64,000 nt of DNA from Demequina globuliformis (GCF_000975155.1 NZ_BBRG01000001.1:1460024-1524023), one strand, 5' to 3'; shown: positions 5,602 to 27,288, numbered from the stretch's first letter. Program-made: numbers and translations. Notes: a model not told the origin generated them from the sequence alone.

Positions 5602-7479
5602 TTACCGCGCGGTCACCGTCACCGTTCCCAGCGACGTCCACAGTTGCAAGTCCACCCACTCATACTCGCTCGTGGTGACTGGGTCGATCGCGACGCCGGG
5701 TTCGACGGCATCCGCCGTGTCGCCAAACGGGAGGAGGCTTGTCGCACCGTCCGCCTCGTCGAGCAAGCTGAGGTTGTCGGGAGCGGAGTCGTCCATGATC
5801 CGGACCTCCTCCTCGTAGTGCTGGTTCGAGACGGAGAGCCCGGACGAGGCCAGCAGGGTGTACGTCCCGGACTGGACGCCCTCGCCGCCTGACTCACCGT
5901 CGCAGCGCGTGACGTCCCGCCACAATGACGTGCCGGTCAGCGACGCTCCCGCTGCCAAGCTCTGGCTCTCAGGGGCAGGCCAGATGAGCGCTTCGGCCGC
6001 GCCATCTGCGCTGCGCGCGGTCGTGTCTCCGAGGTCCTGCGGATAGCCCTCAGCAACGACCCTGCCGTCCCTAACCAGGAACAACTGTGGTTCCGTGGAG
6101 CCCCAGTAGTCCTGGATGTCGTACTCAGAGACGTTGGTGAGGGTGGTGGTGATGGCGGGATTGCCATCGACGACGAACCCATAGCTGACGGACAGCGAAC
6201 GCGGCACGTCGACCTGCATGTCAAGCACATCCATGGTGGACGTCGTCGAAGGGAACGTCGCACCCTCCTGGCCTCCCCAGGTGCAGCCAAAGTACGCGTA
6301 CTCGCCGGTTGTCGCGTCGTTCATCACCCACCGGTGGGTCCCGGCGGCCATGTCCCATGCGCCAGACGCCTGGTCCGCGGCGAAGAGTTCGCGCACAATG
6401 TCCGGCGTCAGGGACCCTTCAGGTAGCGGCTTGGGTTCGAGCGGGTCGGGAAGCCCAGGCTCTGGCAACGGCGCAGGCTCGCCGGGCTCCGGCGCCGCAG
6501 TCGGCTGCGCAGGGCTGAGATACTGTCCAAAGGGGTCGTCGACCTTGTCCCCGTCGACGCTCAATGTGACGGGCCCACCGGCCACGCGCACCAGCTCGTG
6601 ACTGAGGTCGGTCCCCGGCAAGTCCTCCTCGACAGCGAGGTCCTCCGTGGGCACGCTGCTCGCGTCAGCCCCGGAGGCCGCCGCGCTAGGGGAGGGGGCC
6701 GGTGATGCGGAGGGCGCCGAATCAGGCGATTCGGGTGCCTCGGCGGGGTACGCGAGCGTATGCGCGAGGTAGACCTCGTAGTCGCCACCGGGCAAGGCGG
6801 CGCCATCCCAGCAGTTGACAGGCTGCAACCCAATCCATTGTTCAACCGAGCCGAACTCGGTGTCCGGGTCTAGGCGCTCGTACACCTCTCCGGCAGGCAG
6901 GGATGGCTCGTCGGCCGGCCCGTAGACCACGGGCGAGGGGTTCACGAGCCGGCCCACGACAAGCCCGTCCCACACAATCACGTAGTCAGCGGATGCCACC
7001 AGGTCGACCGGGCGCTTCGCCGTGATCGTTTCCGGCACCCAGTACTCGTTGCCATCGACCTCGATGTCTCCCACGCTGTACTCGACACCGGAGGCGTCGC
7101 CAAAGCTCCACGCGGGATCGTCGGCGGCAAATTCTGAGCCGCACATCCACTGCTCGGCCAGCATGGCATCCGCCCCTGAGCCTGCGAGTCCCTCATCGCG
7201 GTAGCCGTCGGCGGCGTCGCCTGCACTCGTATCCATCTGGGACTCTTCCGTCGCCTCGCTGCCGCTGGACTCCATGGCGCTATCGGTGTCTCCGGCACTT
7301 GTGGGAACGCCAATGCCCAATGCCACGACGGCTACGGCGCCCACGCCGACAAGCCCATTCGCGGCGCCGTGGAGCCTGCGGTTGCGGCGCACGGCACGTG
7401 CGGCCGCGGCGGTCGACACCGTGGCGTCCTCGATGGGTGCGTTTTCCGCTGCGCCCCGCATCGCGTCTGACAGCCTCAT
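5602..7479 (-). CDS. Single-pass membrane protein with large ectodomain, partner of the upstream sigma factor
   Basis: 625 residues. A cytoplasmic N-terminus of about 35 residues ending in an Arg-rich patch (RAVRRNRR) precedes one membrane helix (about 40-58), then an acidic ectodomain rich in Asp, Glu, Ser, Thr and Pro. Cysteines occur in widely spaced pairs, as expected for a secreted domain. A Pro-rich linker near the middle (PEPGEPAPLPEPG) separates two halves. Its ATG overlaps the sigma-factor stop by 4 bp. Two other sigma/ectodomain pairs (23223 and 25735) share this architecture. An anti-sigma or sensor role is plausible from the pairing, but no known zinc anti-sigma motif was seen. 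Not assigned to a family. Confidence 0.75.
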   Translation of the reverse strand: MRLSDAMRGAAENAPIEDATVSTAAAARAVRRNRRLHGAANGLVGVGAVAVVALGIGVPTSAGDTDSAMESSGSEATEESQMDTSAGDAADGYRDEGLAGSGADAMLAEQWMCGSEFAADDPAWSFGDASGVEYSVGDIEVDGNEYWVPETITAKRPVDLVASADYVIVWDGLVVGRLVNPSPVVYGPADEPSLPAGEVYERLDPDTEFGSVEQWIGLQPVNCWDGAALPGGDYEVYLAHTLAYPAEAPESPDSAPSASPAPSPSAAASGADASSVPTEDLAVEEDLPGTDLSHELVRVAGGPVTLSVDGDKVDDPFGQYLSPAQPTAAPEPGEPAPLPEPGLPDPLEPKPLPEGSLTPDIVRELFAADQASGAWDMAAGTHRWVMNDATTGEYAYFGCTWGGQEGATFPSTTSTMDVLDMQVDVPRSLSVSYGFVVDGNPAITTTLTNVSEYDIQDYWGSTEPQLFLVRDGRVVAEGYPQDLGDTTARSADGAAEALIWPAPESQSLAAGASLTGTSLWRDVTRCDGESGGEGVQSGTYTLLASSGLSVSNQHYEEEVRIMDDSAPDNLSLLDEADGATSLLPFGDTADAVEPGVAIDPVTTSEYEWVDLQLWTSLGTVTVTAR

Positions 7480-8021
7480 GACTGGCTCCTTTCCGTCACG
7501 TCAGCCGGGGCAGCCGTAGCGGCCTCGGCATCCTCCAGCGGTCCCAGGGCAAGCTGCAACTGGCCCATCGCGTCGCTGAGGTACCTCTTCACCGTGCCTT
7601 CCGCGATCCCCAGCTGGCGCGCAATCTGCGGCACCGTGAGGTCGTCGAAGAATCGCAACACCACGCATGCGCGCACCCGTGGAGGCAACGTCGCGAGTGC
7701 CTGCGAGATGTCGGAACCGGCCTCCACCTGGCCAAAGCCGTCGGGCATCACCGCGTCAGGACTGAACAGGTGTTGGACTCGCTTCCAGCGCTGTTGGCGC
7801 CGGTACTGGTCCACGAAGGAGGACGTGATGGCGCGTCGCACGTAGCCCTCAGCCTTCCCCGCCGTGAGCCCACGGCGTTCCCGGCTGAAGGTGCGCACCA
7901 GGGCGTCCTGGACAAGGTCCTGGGCCTGCACTGGGTCGCCGCACACCAGGTACGCGTAGGACAGCAGGGCGCGTTCGCGGTCGCGCACCAACTGTTCCAT
8001 CGTGTCCTGCCACGGGGCCAT
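7476..8021 (-). CDS. SigE-like ECF RNA polymerase sigma factor
   Basis: 181 residues with a sigma region 2 (about 10-75, with YLVCGDPVQAQDLVQDAL) and a region 4 helix-turn-helix (about 110-165, LTVPQIARQLGIAEGTVKRYL). This is the layout of actinobacterial SigE-family ECF factors. The ATG at 8021 has a clear ribosome site (GGAGGAAGTC); the frame is open farther upstream but lies antisense to the pyrophosphatase gene. It is co-transcribed with, and overlaps by ATGA, a membrane protein that may regulate it. Expression is divergent from the pyrophosphatase. Confidence 0.9.
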   Translation of the reverse strand: MAPWQDTMEQLVRDRERALLSYAYLVCGDPVQAQDLVQDALVRTFSRERRGLTAGKAEGYVRRAITSSFVDQYRRQQRWKRVQHLFSPDAVMPDGFGQVEAGSDISQALATLPPRVRACVVLRFFDDLTVPQIARQLGIAEGTVKRYLSDAMGQLQLALGPLEDAEAATAAPADVTERSQS

Positions 8022-8189
8022 GACTTCCTCCACACGCCATTGGGTTGGTCGGTTCACAGTGTCGACGCACAACTGGGCAGAAACGTTGGGTCCCACCCAG
8101 CCACGCGTCCCATGGTCCCCTAGAGTGGCGTCATACCCGGTAGGGGGCACAGCGTGGTGTCTCCCCGTGAGCGTCGTCAAGGAGGACGA

Positions 8190-22602: not shown

Positions 22603-22638
22603 GACCACCCCCACCCCAGCGGTGGGAGTATCCGTCTT

Positions 22639-23226
22639 ATGGGTATGAGCAGCACGCCGCAGGGAGCCGGACAAGGCCATGGCGTGCCTTCACGGCGCGC
22701 CTCTCACGACGAGGTTGTCGCCGAGGTACTCAGGGAAGCTGGTGCGCGACTGGCCTCATACGGCTGGATTCTTACCGGTTCCGAGCATGCGGGCGAGGAA
22801 CTGGTGCAAGCGGCGATCGTGAAGACGTTTGTCCGCAAGCGCCGCCTGACCGATGTCCGTGCCGCAGAGGCGTACGTGCGCGCGGCCATGCGAACTGTCC
22901 ACGTTGACGGCCTGCGGCGGCATTCCACGTGGGGACGCGTGAAATCGCGGGTGGTGCCCACGCAGGTCCTGGCCGACCCCGCTGAGGACATTGGCGCCAA
23001 AGACGAGGTGTCGCGTGCACTGGCGACACTCGCACCGCGCGTGCGCACCGCGATCGCGTTGCGCTACTACGACGACCTGACCGTCGAGGATGTGGCGCAG
23101 GCCATGGGTCTATCCGCCGGGACCGTGAAGAAGTACCTCGCTGATGGTCGTGCCGCGCTGGCGCCCCTGCTTGGGGTGGCAGACGATGAGCCCGAGTCCG
23201 TGCCCGTGAAGGGAGCGAAGCGATGA
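22639..23226 (+). CDS. SigE-like ECF RNA polymerase sigma factor
   Basis: 195 residues: a 25-residue leader, sigma region 2 (about 28-95, with GSEHAGEELVQAAIVKTFVRKRR and a basic Arg-rich 2.4 end), and region 4 (about 125-178, YDDLTVEDVAQAMGLSAGTVKKYL). Full helix-turn-helix retained. Its stop overlaps the ATG of the membrane protein downstream by 4 bp. Begins 36 bp after topA, with a small hairpin (CCCACC/GGTGGG) between. No ribosome site is visible; a second ATG lies at 22645. Confidence 0.88.
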   Translation: MGMSSTPQGAGQGHGVPSRRASHDEVVAEVLREAGARLASYGWILTGSEHAGEELVQAAIVKTFVRKRRLTDVRAAEAYVRAAMRTVHVDGLRRHSTWGRVKSRVVPTQVLADPAEDIGAKDEVSRALATLAPRVRTAIALRYYDDLTVEDVAQAMGLSAGTVKKYLADGRAALAPLLGVADDEPESVPVKGAKR

Positions 23227-24683
23227 ACGACATGTTCGATGGCCTGCACCGCAGTGCCGCGCGCCACGGAGAGACGATGGCCGCGCGGATGGATCCCGAC
23301 GCGGTGGCCGAGCGCACGCACGACGCCATTGCTGCTGGACGCCGCCGCCGCACCCAGGGACACGCGGCGCTCGCGATCGCCGCGGTCGGCCTGGTCGGCG
23401 CAGGTGTGTGGGCGGTCCAGCCGCACCACCCAGAGCCGGCCGACGAGCTTGTGGACGCCCGTGTTGGCACGGTGGACGTTGTTCCCGGGGACTTCGGGGA
23501 CATGGGCTGCTTCCGCGATGGTGCGCCCGCCTATGTGCCCTGGACGGAACCCGGCGTGACGATCGCCTCCGAGGACGTCCTGCGTTTGGGTCTCCAGGTG
23601 GAAGCGACCTTCTACCGATGGGGCGAAGGGGACAACGTCGAAGCCTTCGACCCCGGTCCTCACTTCGACGCTTCCCGGTCGGCACATGGCGACGTCGATC
23701 CTGTCGGGTGGGGTGCTCAGTTCACGGTGTCGTGGGAAGGTGATGCCCCCTACACGGTGGAGGCGGCGGCGTTTCTGGTGTCGGAAGGGCGGGTGGTGAG
23801 CGACTTCTACGCGTGGGATTCGCCCATCGTGGGGGATGTCGCCCCGCAGGACTGGAAGGGATACGCGGCGCCGTCGAACACGACGACCACGTACGTGGGT
23901 GCGGATGTCAACACCGCCAATTGTTTGCGCGGCGATGGCGATGATCCCGTGGGGCTGGTGCCGGCGGAGCAGGCCGTCGTGCACACCTTGGTGCAGGTCC
24001 AAGACGAAGCGGGCGTGCCGTTGGCCACCTATGTCGACGCCAATGGCATCGACGGACTTACGGTCTCCTACCCTGATGCCGTCGAGGCTGGACTCGGGGT
24101 CGACATTGAGCCGGTGACGGACGACGAGGTTGTGGCCGAGCGCGCGCGGCGTGCGGACATCGGCCCCACCGCTCCAGCTGAGGTGGCGCTCGCGGAAGCG
24201 CTGGCGAGCGACGGGCAACCGTTGGAGCAGGCCGGCGCGGGCCTGTCGGGGCCGTCTAAGTGCGGCGTGCCCGTCGCGGAGCCGGTGGCTCAGGCAGTGC
24301 TGCCTGTCGATGTTGACGTGCCACCGGCCCCAGCGACAGTGTCGCTGTCGGAACTGCACGCTGATCCGGCAGCCGCTGCTGAAGTAACCGAGCCCACATT
24401 CGGCACACCCGGCGTGCTGCACTTTATTGATCAGGATGGCGATCAGGTGGGTCACATGCCCGCCACCTTTGGCCCAGATGGGGACGCGTGGGTCATTGAC
24501 GTGACTCCCGCCCTGTGCGCCGAGGTCCAGGGAATCGTTCCCGGGACGTACACCGTGGTCGCGGAGGTAGGCGAGGTCGCCAGTGTGATTGGCCAGCAGA
24601 CCTGGAACACCTTCTGGGAGATCAATCACGCGGACCCCGTGGCGTGGGCCGTGATCGGCACCACCGTGGTGGAAGACGAGTGA
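23223..24683 (+). CDS. Single-pass membrane protein with large ectodomain, sigma-factor partner
   Basis: 486 residues. A cytoplasmic N-terminus of about 44 residues ending GRRRRTQG, one membrane helix (about 47-66), and a large acidic ectodomain. It shares clear blocks with the protein at 25735: APAYVPWTEPGVTIASEDV after a lone Cys, SWEGDAPYTVEAAAFLVS, and LVQVQDEAGVPLATYVDANG. Four ectodomain cysteines could form disulfides. Encoded directly after, and overlapping, a sigma factor. Membrane anti-sigma factor or sensor is the natural inference, but no known anti-sigma fold was recognised. Function unknown. Confidence 0.78.
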   Translation: MNDMFDGLHRSAARHGETMAARMDPDAVAERTHDAIAAGRRRRTQGHAALAIAAVGLVGAGVWAVQPHHPEPADELVDARVGTVDVVPGDFGDMGCFRDGAPAYVPWTEPGVTIASEDVLRLGLQVEATFYRWGEGDNVEAFDPGPHFDASRSAHGDVDPVGWGAQFTVSWEGDAPYTVEAAAFLVSEGRVVSDFYAWDSPIVGDVAPQDWKGYAAPSNTTTTYVGADVNTANCLRGDGDDPVGLVPAEQAVVHTLVQVQDEAGVPLATYVDANGIDGLTVSYPDAVEAGLGVDIEPVTDDEVVAERARRADIGPTAPAEVALAEALASDGQPLEQAGAGLSGPSKCGVPVAEPVAQAVLPVDVDVPPAPATVSLSELHADPAAAAEVTEPTFGTPGVLHFIDQDGDQVGHMPATFGPDGDAWVIDVTPALCAEVQGIVPGTYTVVAEVGEVASVIGQQTWNTFWEINHADPVAWAVIGTTVVEDE

Positions 24684-24760
24684 GGTCCGTCACCCCCCGG
24701 TAGATTTTCGGCACGCGGGGTCCGTAGGATGCGACGCAACGCCCTCCCAGTGGCACTTTT

Positions 24761-24811
24761 TGGCTGTTATGCCCTCGCTCACCAGCCAAATGGAGCCATC
24801 TGGTTGTTATG
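24761..24811 (+). promoter_or_regulatory. Direct repeats and imperfect palindrome upstream of the degenerate sigma gene
   Basis: TGGYTGTTATG occurs at 24761-24771 and 24801-24811, exactly 40 bp apart. Between them lies an imperfect palindrome, CAAATGG-AG-CCATCTG. This stretch is AT-richer than its surroundings. TGTTAT could act as -10 boxes, or the repeats could be activator sites for the sigma/ectodomain pair at 24851-27288. Inference only. Confidence 0.35.
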
Positions 24812-24850
24812 GGGGCGTAAAACAGCGAAATCTTGCCACCAGGGGGATCC

Positions 24851-25738
24851 ATGGGTGACCGGACGCACCTCATCGAGGAGGTGCTCGCCGAGTCAGGCGC
24901 GCGGCTGGGCGCTTACGGGTGGCTCCTCGCCGGCTCCGAGTCCGCCGCCGCGGACCTTGTTCAGTCAGCAATGGTCGAGGCGCTCAGCCGGGCGCGCCGC
25001 CCGCGCGATGCCGAGGCGACCGAGGATGCCGTCCGTGCGCAGATGCGGCGCCTCGCCGCGCGTGACGCCAAGCGGGCACAACGTGGCCGCGACCATGAAG
25101 AGCTTGGCGAGGCCGCGGCCGCGATACCCGCGGACCGGGCCTCATTGGCGGCAGGTGAGCCGGGTCGGGAAAGCGACTCTGCTGGGGCCGATGCCGTGGA
25201 CCTGTCCGCATGGGAGTACCGGCCACACCAAGAGGCCAGTCCCGCGCCCGCGTCCACAGCGAGCGGGGCGGGCGCGGACGACGTGTCCGGGCCAGCGCTG
25301 ACGTACGACGCGTCGCTGTGGGAACCGCCGGCTCCGGGGCAGGGGTCCGATGCCGTCAAGGGCGGCAGTGGCGAGGAGCCGCAGGCGGCACCTGAGGATG
25401 ACCGCCACGACGTTCGCGAAGGAGACGACGCCGTGCTGGCGGACCTCGACGGGTCGGTTCCAGAGCTCCGCGACGAGCAGGGTCGCCACGCGGACGCCCC
25501 CGGCGCCGTCGCCCTCGCACGAGCCCTGAGTGGCCTCGAGCCCCGCGTACGGGTGGCAGTGGTGATGGCAGAGATTGACCACTTGGAGACCGAGCAGATC
25601 GCGCGGGCTATGCGACTACCCGCGCACGCCGTCGAGGCGGATGTGGCGTTTGGCCGGTCAGAGTTGGCGCGCGCGCTCGGCATCGCCCATGCGCACCACG
25701 CCGAGCACGTGGACCTGGTGCCTGGAGGTGCGAGGTGA
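24851..25738 (+). CDS. Divergent ECF sigma-factor-like protein with long linker
   Basis: 295 residues, about 100 longer than its paralogue at 22639. Region 2 is recognisable (GAYGWLLAGSESAAADLVQSA). About 120 residues of low-complexity Ala/Gly/Pro/Asp sequence (about 95-215) separate it from region 4. In region 4 the usual recognition helix (SAGTVKKYL in the paralogue) has become PAHAVEADV, losing the basic contacts. Promoter recognition is therefore doubtful; it may be a decayed or repurposed sigma factor, for example one binding core polymerase or an anti-sigma factor only. ATG 24851 chosen for the AGGGGGATCC ribosome site. Coupled by GTGA to the next gene. Confidence 0.75.
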   Translation: MGDRTHLIEEVLAESGARLGAYGWLLAGSESAAADLVQSAMVEALSRARRPRDAEATEDAVRAQMRRLAARDAKRAQRGRDHEELGEAAAAIPADRASLAAGEPGRESDSAGADAVDLSAWEYRPHQEASPAPASTASGAGADDVSGPALTYDASLWEPPAPGQGSDAVKGGSGEEPQAAPEDDRHDVREGDDAVLADLDGSVPELRDEQGRHADAPGAVALARALSGLEPRVRVAVVMAEIDHLETEQIARAMRLPAHAVEADVAFGRSELARALGIAHAHHAEHVDLVPGGAR

Positions 25739-27288
25739 GCCGCATCGGAGATGAACTTCGCTCGAGCGCCGGCCCACACGGCGACGCCGTCGCTGCCACG
25801 CTGGCCAGCACTGCCGTACCCGCTGACCTCGCCCGGGCGGCCCGCACCCGCAGGCGCACGCGCGGGGTGCGGGCGGCGCTCGTGGGCACGGCTGGGGTTG
25901 CCGTGGTCGCGACTGGCGCGTGGATGCTCGCGCCCGAGCCCCCACTACCGGCTATGCAGGTCGCTGATGGCACCGTGGCACCCGACGTAGCGCCTATGCC
26001 TCCAGACTTTGGCATGGATGTCTGTTCTTCTTCGATGGAGCCGTACGTGCCGTGGGCCGAGCCCGGAGTCGCCCTCGCGTCTGATGAGGTACGAGACTTA
26101 GGGATCTTGATCGACGCCCACCTGTTCTCGATGGACGCCGACGCGTGGAACGGACCGGAGTCCGTCACTGAGCACGAGCAGGGCGAGGCCGTGATGCTGG
26201 AGCATGCGCCGTCGGATTCTTCGAGCGGCGACATGGTCGGGGTTCAGTTCGAGTTCACGTGGCCGGGCGACCAGCTCTACGAGGTGGAGGCGCTCGCCTT
26301 CCTGGTGTCCCAGGACCGGGTGCACAGCCCCATGATGTCCTGGCCCATGAACGTCCTCACCGAGGAGCCGCTGTGGGTATCGGGGGACGGAGCCGACTAC
26401 GACAGCGGCGCGGACCGCTCCTCACTGGCGCTGGTCTCTCTCATCCAACCAGGCGTGTGTCACTACCAGTCCACCGCCGCCACGCGGCCCATCCCGCCCG
26501 GTCCTGCCGAGTTGCACACCCTTGTCCAGGTGAAGGACGAGTCCGGCGAACCGTTGGTGACTTTCGTCGACGCCCAAGGTCTGGACGGCACCACCGTCGA
26601 CTACGCCCCTCAACCCGGCGACCCCACCACGCCTGAACCCACGGCATCGGCCTCACCCGTGACGCAAGCCCAGATCGACGCCGTGCTCGACACACGCGCC
26701 AACCTTGAGCCCGTGCCCTCGGTGCAAGCGGTCATCCGTGACGCTATCGCGCAGCAGGGGGCGCCACTGAGCGAGGCTGGCGACGGCATCATTCAGAGAC
26801 GCCCAGGGGAGATCCTGGGGGCCACTCCCCTCGACGACCGTGTGCTGACCTTTGACTACGGGGAGGACCCCGAGCGATCGCTGCTGCCTCCCGCACCCTC
26901 CACGGTGTCCATGGAGGTGCTTGAGAGTGGCGGTAGCGCGTCCTTCGACCAAAGTTGGGACGGCCGCGCGGTCGCGACTGACGGCACGTTGATGTTCCTC
27001 GATAGCGATGGTGTGGTCGTGGGGCGGGTCGACGCGTACTTCGAGGCACCCGCGGACATCGACGGGGACGGTGACGTTGATAGTGAGGGCGCCACTGGCG
27101 GTTGGATGATCTGGAACGACGGTACTGACATCGAGGGCACCGTCGGGTCGCTTGAGGAGGGCGAGACCTACACCGTGGTGGGGCAGACCATGCTCTACGA
27201 TCCCGCAGCGATGCCCGAGGAGGTCGCTGCGACGGGAGTCAACGAGGTATGGGCATGGGGCCTCATGGGGGAGACCACGATCGAGTGA
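25735..27288 (+). CDS. Single-pass membrane protein with large ectodomain, sigma-factor partner
   Basis: 517 residues, paralogue of the protein at 23223. Short cytoplasmic N-terminus with an Arg-rich end (ARTRRRTRG), one membrane helix (about 46-62), and an acidic ectodomain. Shared blocks include EPYVPWAEPGVALASDEV, DQLYEVEALAFLVSQ and LVQVKDESGEPLVTFVDAQG. A Thr/Pro/Ala stretch (about residue 300) links two halves. The second half holds a DGDGDVDSE segment that looks like a calcium-binding loop. GTG start overlapping the preceding stop by 4 bp. Function unknown. Confidence 0.78.
   Translation: MSRIGDELRSSAGPHGDAVAATLASTAVPADLARAARTRRRTRGVRAALVGTAGVAVVATGAWMLAPEPPLPAMQVADGTVAPDVAPMPPDFGMDVCSSSMEPYVPWAEPGVALASDEVRDLGILIDAHLFSMDADAWNGPESVTEHEQGEAVMLEHAPSDSSSGDMVGVQFEFTWPGDQLYEVEALAFLVSQDRVHSPMMSWPMNVLTEEPLWVSGDGADYDSGADRSSLALVSLIQPGVCHYQSTAATRPIPPGPAELHTLVQVKDESGEPLVTFVDAQGLDGTTVDYAPQPGDPTTPEPTASASPVTQAQIDAVLDTRANLEPVPSVQAVIRDAIAQQGAPLSEAGDGIIQRRPGEILGATPLDDRVLTFDYGEDPERSLLPPAPSTVSMEVLESGGSASFDQSWDGRAVATDGTLMFLDSDGVVVGRVDAYFEAPADIDGDGDVDSEGATGGWMIWNDGTDIEGTVGSLEEGETYTVVGQTMLYDPAAMPEEVAATGVNEVWAWGLMGETTIE

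Follow-up and report, generated by a model that had tools for sequence, protein, structure and literature searches.

In a stretch of 64,000 nucleotides from Demequina globuliformis (the window), two consecutive gene pairs at 22639-27288 each join a sigma-type gene to a gene for a one-helix membrane protein. A sequence-only reading had taken these pairs to be equivalent duplicates, but they are not: the first sigma protein, SigA, is intact and lies behind a predicted promoter of autoregulatory type, whereas the second, SigB, is degenerate and lacks both features. Very likely, SigA is an autoregulated ECF sigma factor and EctoA the membrane anti-sigma factor that goes with it, the pair being of a lineage-specific kind. 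Comparison with relatives gives good support to the view that SigB is no ordinary sigma factor, and it is proposed here that SigB is a sigma mimic that would work by binding anti-sigma tails.

Sigma/anti-sigma pairs are a main bacterial route for answering envelope signals, and to our knowledge it is not settled how paralogous pairs are insulated from one another. Because the Demequina paralogues are adjacent and their promoter classes track the sigma clades, insulation is directly testable in this system. The features of the window are as follows.

22612..22639, + strand: predicted SigA-type promoter, CACCC-N16-CGTCTTA, autoregulatory class (sole match to the pattern in the window)
22639..23226, + strand: sigA, intact ECF sigma (TIGR02937, Sigma70_r4_2, 52/55 conserved residues)
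23223..24683, + strand: ectoA, one-helix membrane partner (4-bp ATGA overlap with sigA)
24833..25738, + strand: sigB, degenerate (pseudo-)sigma (22/55 conserved residues; predicted sigma2 and sigma4 helices)
25121..25498, + strand: disordered acidic linker of SigB, residues 97-222 (by pLDDT and composition)
25319..25330, + strand: W-E-P-P motif in the SigB linker, residues 163-166 (P165 and P166 invariant in alignments A2 and A4)
25634..25636, + strand: SigB Glu268, at the position of the recognition-helix Lys (Lys in 37/37 intact versus 0/17 degenerate sigmas)
25735..27288, + strand: ectoB, one-helix partner of SigB and homologue of EctoA (GTG start, 4-bp overlap with sigB)
8064..8088, - strand: predicted SigC promoter, CAACG-N16-CGTC (same boxes before the G035 orthologue and in the sister genus)
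7476..8021, - strand: sigC, ECF sigma of a genus-wide core module (family profile matches)
5602..7479, - strand: ectoC, one-helix partner of SigC (44/44 genus genomes and the sister genus)

Layout of the modules and the predicted SigA promoter

Both pairs are present as first described, each with its 4-bp overlap. EctoA and EctoB each have a single hydrophobic segment near residues 45-65 followed by an acidic ectodomain, as had been claimed, and the two can be aligned over nearly their full length (E about 1e-38), so they are homologous. The shared blocks that had been picked out by eye (YVPWxEPG-, VEALAFLVS- and VQVKDE-like) are genuine, recurring in 14 family members. Furthermore, the pairing, whose absence from relatives had been named beforehand as the finding that would tell against it, is near-universal across the genus. 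Because the 4-bp overlap with a one-helix partner recurs in this way, the layout goes beyond chance. The description of both first genes as ECF sigma-like fits SigA; SigB has kept the likeness but lost the determinants of promoter recognition.

A third module on the minus strand, at 5602-8021, had been regarded as a further copy. It does have the same plan and a homologous sigma, but its membrane protein reaches only 13.6 bits against the EctoA profile, and the module is no mere copy: SigC/EctoC is a core module of the genus, found in all 44 genus genomes and in the one sister-genus genome sampled. SigC has the same kind of promoter as the intact sigmas of the cluster.

SigA passes the ECF cut-offs (TIGR02937, 52.1 versus 42.9; PF08281, Sigma70_r4_2, 54.4 versus 25.7), keeps 52 of 55 conserved residues, and has the recognition helix GTVKKY. 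The pattern CACCC-N15..17-CGT[CT][CT]TA matches the 64-kb window once, at the 22612 site, and the CACCC class of -35 box lies before all seven sigmas of SigA's clade. The ATG at 22639 lies partly within the -10 box of this predicted promoter; consequently, translation of SigA more likely begins at 22645 or 22684.

Intact and degenerate sigmas

The sigmas compared across the genus comprise 37 intact ones, with 44-55 of 55 conserved positions, and 17 degenerate ones, with 11-30, the latter in 16 genomes. The split was made by profile score after the scores had been seen to fall in two groups; the contrast in conserved residues is therefore partly built in, since the classes are defined by similarity to the intact profile. 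In addition, some of the low counts reflect an insert that disrupts the alignment, and regions 2 and 4 were realigned separately. The degenerate total excludes a few sigma frames that are short or broken (G009_2794 and G059_4932, and others in G060 and G030) and that may reflect decay of the copy or errors of assembly.

The contrast in promoters is independent of the profile-score split. In an exhaustive scan for two-box patterns, CAACC..CGTT preceded 20 intact sigmas, versus 5-6 for the best box pair in shuffled sequences. A wider pattern, CA[AC]C-N16/17-CGT[TC], which was fixed after the upstream sequences had been inspected, precedes 35 of the 37 intact sigmas (shuffled mean 1.5) and one of the 17 degenerate ones; its distance from the first domain codon is in most cases about 58-68 bases, and the boxes are separated by 16-17 bases. 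The class of -35 box follows the sigma tree (5 changes versus a shuffled mean of 12.9), a co-segregation that is partly linkage, since promoter and sigma descend together. With a promoter in 35 of 37 intact relatives, and with the slow tails described below, the sigma/anti-sigma reading for SigA is well supported. When regulon targets were sought with a relaxed pattern, the matches in the topA-tmk intervals were scattered and too noisy to name any.

Two observations concern the upstream regions of individual genes. The one degenerate sigma that keeps an ECF-type promoter (L037:3958-4608) has boxes that resemble the ones upstream of its genome's intact sigma, a likeness that would be consistent with cross-regulation. 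In the spacer before sigB (window 24684-24832), the element GGYTGTTATG is repeated, and there is also an inverted repeat (TTTGGCTG/CAGCCAAA).

SigB itself scores 23.6 against TIGR02937, under the cut-off of 42.9, and the region 4 model (Sigma70_r4_2; 31.7, over 25.7) is the sole Pfam model that it passes. It retains 22 of the 55 conserved residues, with Glu268 replacing the recognition Lys, and alignment to relatives makes ATG 24851 a more likely start than TTG 24833. In the AlphaFold2 model the sigma2 and sigma4 helices are mostly above pLDDT 90, and sigma4 agrees with region 4 of E. coli sigmaE to 1.0 A over 60 columns; the insert, about 125 residues long, has pLDDT of about 40-50 over most of residues 101-220.

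These losses characterize the whole class. The Lys of GTVK is present in 37/37 intact and 0/17 degenerate sigmas, seven of which have Glu instead, and the mean net charge of the recognition helix passes from +1.3 to -0.9. It could be argued that the altered helix reads another -35, giving SigB a new specificity in its binding to DNA or polymerase; the retained fold and the conservation of region 4 in G064/G024 are in keeping with this. However, the helix has on average become negatively charged and varies widely among the degenerate copies, and the sigB operon has no ECF-type promoter of the kind that precedes intact modules, so that such a change of specificity seems very unlikely.

The acidic pair of sigma2.2 is likewise present in all 37 intact sigmas and in 1 of the 14 degenerate proteins that could be aligned. 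The same loss is seen in EcfP of ECF43 (PMC8999054), a precedent for supposing that SigB is a sigma that stays inactive until it is modified. Nevertheless, the Lys that reads the -35 has been lost as well, in many cases to Glu, together with much of region 2.3/2.4, and phosphorylation would not obviously restore these; there is only a small chance, in our estimation, that SigB works in this manner.

The motif [FWYL]xPP occurs in 10 linkers of the degenerate class, with a chance per linker of 0.02-0.35 by shuffling; it was noticed post hoc in related sequences, and the case for its being meaningful is of moderate strength. A single origin of the class is not claimed, given that 13 of the 17 are united at a node with support of 0.61 and that the ectodomain tree separates two degenerate groups. 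A literature search on degenerate or pseudo sigma factors, partial in its coverage and thus no proof of absence, found nothing relevant.

Evidence on selection is mixed. Between G064 and G024 the dN/dS of the degenerate sigma is 0.16 in region 2, 0.33 in the linker, and 0.06 in region 4, with 0.08 for the intact sigma; among G000, G010 and G008 it is 0.23-0.35, and in the G023/G031/G006/G025/G026 group 0.5-0.6, dS being near saturation in several degenerate pairs. With values from 0.06 to 0.6, the class seems to be kept in some lineages and under relaxed selection in others, and the case for functional constraint is supported in the former and weak in the latter. If SigB were instead a slowly decaying sigma factor, part of an old module that has lost its function and is being discarded, then the loss of the recognition Lys, the sigma2.2 acidic pair and the promoter would follow, as would the patchy presence, the high dN/dS of one clade, and the few short sigma frames in other genomes. 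Such a history does not sit well with frames that are open in 16 genomes across the genus, a slot beside topA that recurs, a confidently predicted fold, the region 4 value of one pair, a 4-bp overlap kept in nine cases, and an invariant PP in the linker. We therefore consider decay unlikely and retain the proposal of a mimic.

Partner proteins and the topA-tmk locus

An overlapping or adjacent one-helix partner accompanies 35 of the 37 intact sigmas, with an overlap of exactly 4 bp in 32, and the partner's tail measures 44.8 +/- 3.4 residues. Among the degenerate sigmas, 15 of 17 have a partner, and the overlap is 4 bp in nine. Distances between sigmas correlate with distances between tails (Mantel r 0.48; 0.42 with ectodomain distance removed; p 0.0005). 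Tail identity exceeds ectodomain identity in 64 of 76 intact pairs and in 15 of 32 degenerate pairs, although the pairs are non-independent and the Mann-Whitney p of 4e-5 overstates the difference. The degenerate tails are thus no more conserved than their ectodomains, and the contact between sigma and tail could be weakened there.

These correlations bear on whether the Ecto proteins are anti-sigmas at all. They might be surface proteins that are simply co-transcribed, with the sigmas answering to something else, and indeed they match no known anti-sigma domain and include tandem genes without a sigma of their own in G010, G064 and G024. Yet the gene overlap is near-universal, the basic tail is conserved, the sigma-tail correlation extends beyond the ectodomain, and the tails of intact modules evolve more slowly than the ectodomains; mere co-transcription seems quite unlikely, and the anti-sigma reading is kept.

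EctoA has a cytoplasmic tail of about 46 residues and a transmembrane segment at about residues 47-65. Its AlphaFold2 model (mean pLDDT 78) has a largely beta ectodomain and places helices at residues 2-22 and 25-54, at a low pLDDT of about 45-59. The statement that the ectodomains fit no known anti-sigma type has held up, as EctoA, EctoB and EctoC are under the cut-off for every Pfam and NCBIfam family. A search of PDB sequences with the Ecto profile gave no match under E 0.1. Assignment of the family by fold (Foldseek, VIA-align) gave common beta-sandwich resemblances, the best at Z 6.3, and no family could be named; this is not read as a new fold.

The suggestion of a lineage-specific family is borne out: of the 65 genera of the order, Demequina is the one in which EctoA is detected, by a single-sequence search that is less sensitive than an alignment query, and a scan of named genomes returned Demequina alone. 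No relative of EctoA was found in a plasmid collection and none of EctoB in a viral collection. At three loci (L022:1085-4109, L025:1903-5026, L026:1956-5101), two Ecto genes lie in tandem; their overlap is a few bases long, and no sigma gene separates them.

Within the genus, topA was found in 43/44 genomes and tmk in 44/44, and the length of DNA between them varies greatly, with zero to four sigma/Ecto modules per genome (40 fetched intervals and the window). We read the cluster as an accessory, patchy, lineage-specific set of ECF sigma/anti-sigma modules, a reading graded jointly with the whole explanation below and held at slightly better than even confidence. In the sister-genus genome the topA slot is occupied by one intact module, which has both the promoter and the 4-bp overlap; the ancestral state was thus likely a single intact module. 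In most carriers the sigma gene that comes first after topA is the degenerate one, and in this genome and G065 an intact module precedes it. G010 and G008 have only a degenerate module at the locus, so that a mimic there must act on modules elsewhere.

Beyond the modules on the tmk side, two Demequina genomes have open frames >3,100 and >3,400 residues long, each with a hydrophobic segment at the N-terminus (L025:10535-19901 and L026:9668-19901), possibly giant secreted proteins. In L059 (G060, D. litorisediminis, a genome 50% complete), several genes including topA are split into overlapping frames, probably by sequencing errors.

Proposed mechanism and comparison with known systems

Taken together, the pairing, the loss of residues and promoter, the predicted fold, and the low dN/dS in several pairs have led to a model for the two modules. 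In this model, EctoA would be a membrane anti-sigma factor whose cytoplasmic tail of ~45 residues holds SigA, and a signal at the acidic ectodomain would release it. Free SigA would then act at the CACCC-N16-CGTC promoter at 22612 to transcribe the sigA-ectoA operon, and its targets would probably include other genes too. SigB, which keeps the sigma2 and sigma4 folds without the residues that read the -35, would probably bind RNA polymerase poorly, and it has no autoregulatory promoter; most likely it acts by protein contact, binding the EctoB tail and/or paralogous tails. It would thereby tune the number of tails free to hold intact sigmas, like PhyR in principle, and its linker motif may recruit a further partner. 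Tail-sigma binding, release by a signal and the target of the mimic are what we infer from this basis, and the explanation as a whole, an anti-sigma module with a retained mimic beside it in an accessory cluster, seems to us somewhat favoured.

Operons of an ECF sigma and a membrane anti-sigma are known in the RseA, RsiW and CnrY types. The Demequina modules share with them a sigma gene that comes first, an overlapping one-helix partner, a short tail, and an extracytoplasmic domain, and share with ECF/anti-sigma operons the autoregulatory-type promoter with a CAAC-like -35 and a CGT -10. The membrane anti-sigma layout (encoded with the sigma, one transmembrane segment, a short tail, here of about 45 residues) is found in 35 of the 37 intact modules. 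In contrast to these types, the Demequina tail matches no Pfam or NCBIfam anti-sigma profile, the modules lie side by side, and the EctoA/B ectodomain is detected in Demequina only. The class II anti-sigma CnrY has a short two-helix tail that binds sigma4 and sigma2 (PMC7406223). EctoA likewise has a predicted-helical tail of ~45 residues and then one transmembrane segment, a likeness of description that carries no claim of CnrY membership.

EcfP, of group ECF43, lacks the DAED motif of sigma2.2 and functions as a sigma once a Ser/Thr kinase has activated it (PMC8999054). The lost acidic motif is common to EcfP and SigB, but SigB has also lost the residue that reads the -35, and it has a membrane partner. 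The best-scoring family for SigA, SigB and SigC is the actinobacterial SigE family (TIGR02983), although all miss its cut-off of 141.55 (116.1, 46.9 and 133.7, respectively), SigB by a wide margin.

PhyR is a sigma-factor mimic, the partner switch of Alphaproteobacteria, controlled by a receiver domain. SigB likewise has, by sequence and model, a sigma fold without promoter recognition and is a proposed anti-sigma binder. However, no receiver domain was found in SigB, whose gene shares an operon with that of a membrane anti-sigma-like protein. We offer, tentatively and with more doubt than the explanation above, that Demequina has a class of sigma folds that have given up promoter recognition and autoregulation, are still coupled to sensors, and compete for anti-sigma tails, which would amount to cross-module buffering by a retired sigma outside the PhyR system. 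If true, a retained mimic in the same cluster as its intact paralogues would be a second route to sigma-factor mimicry.
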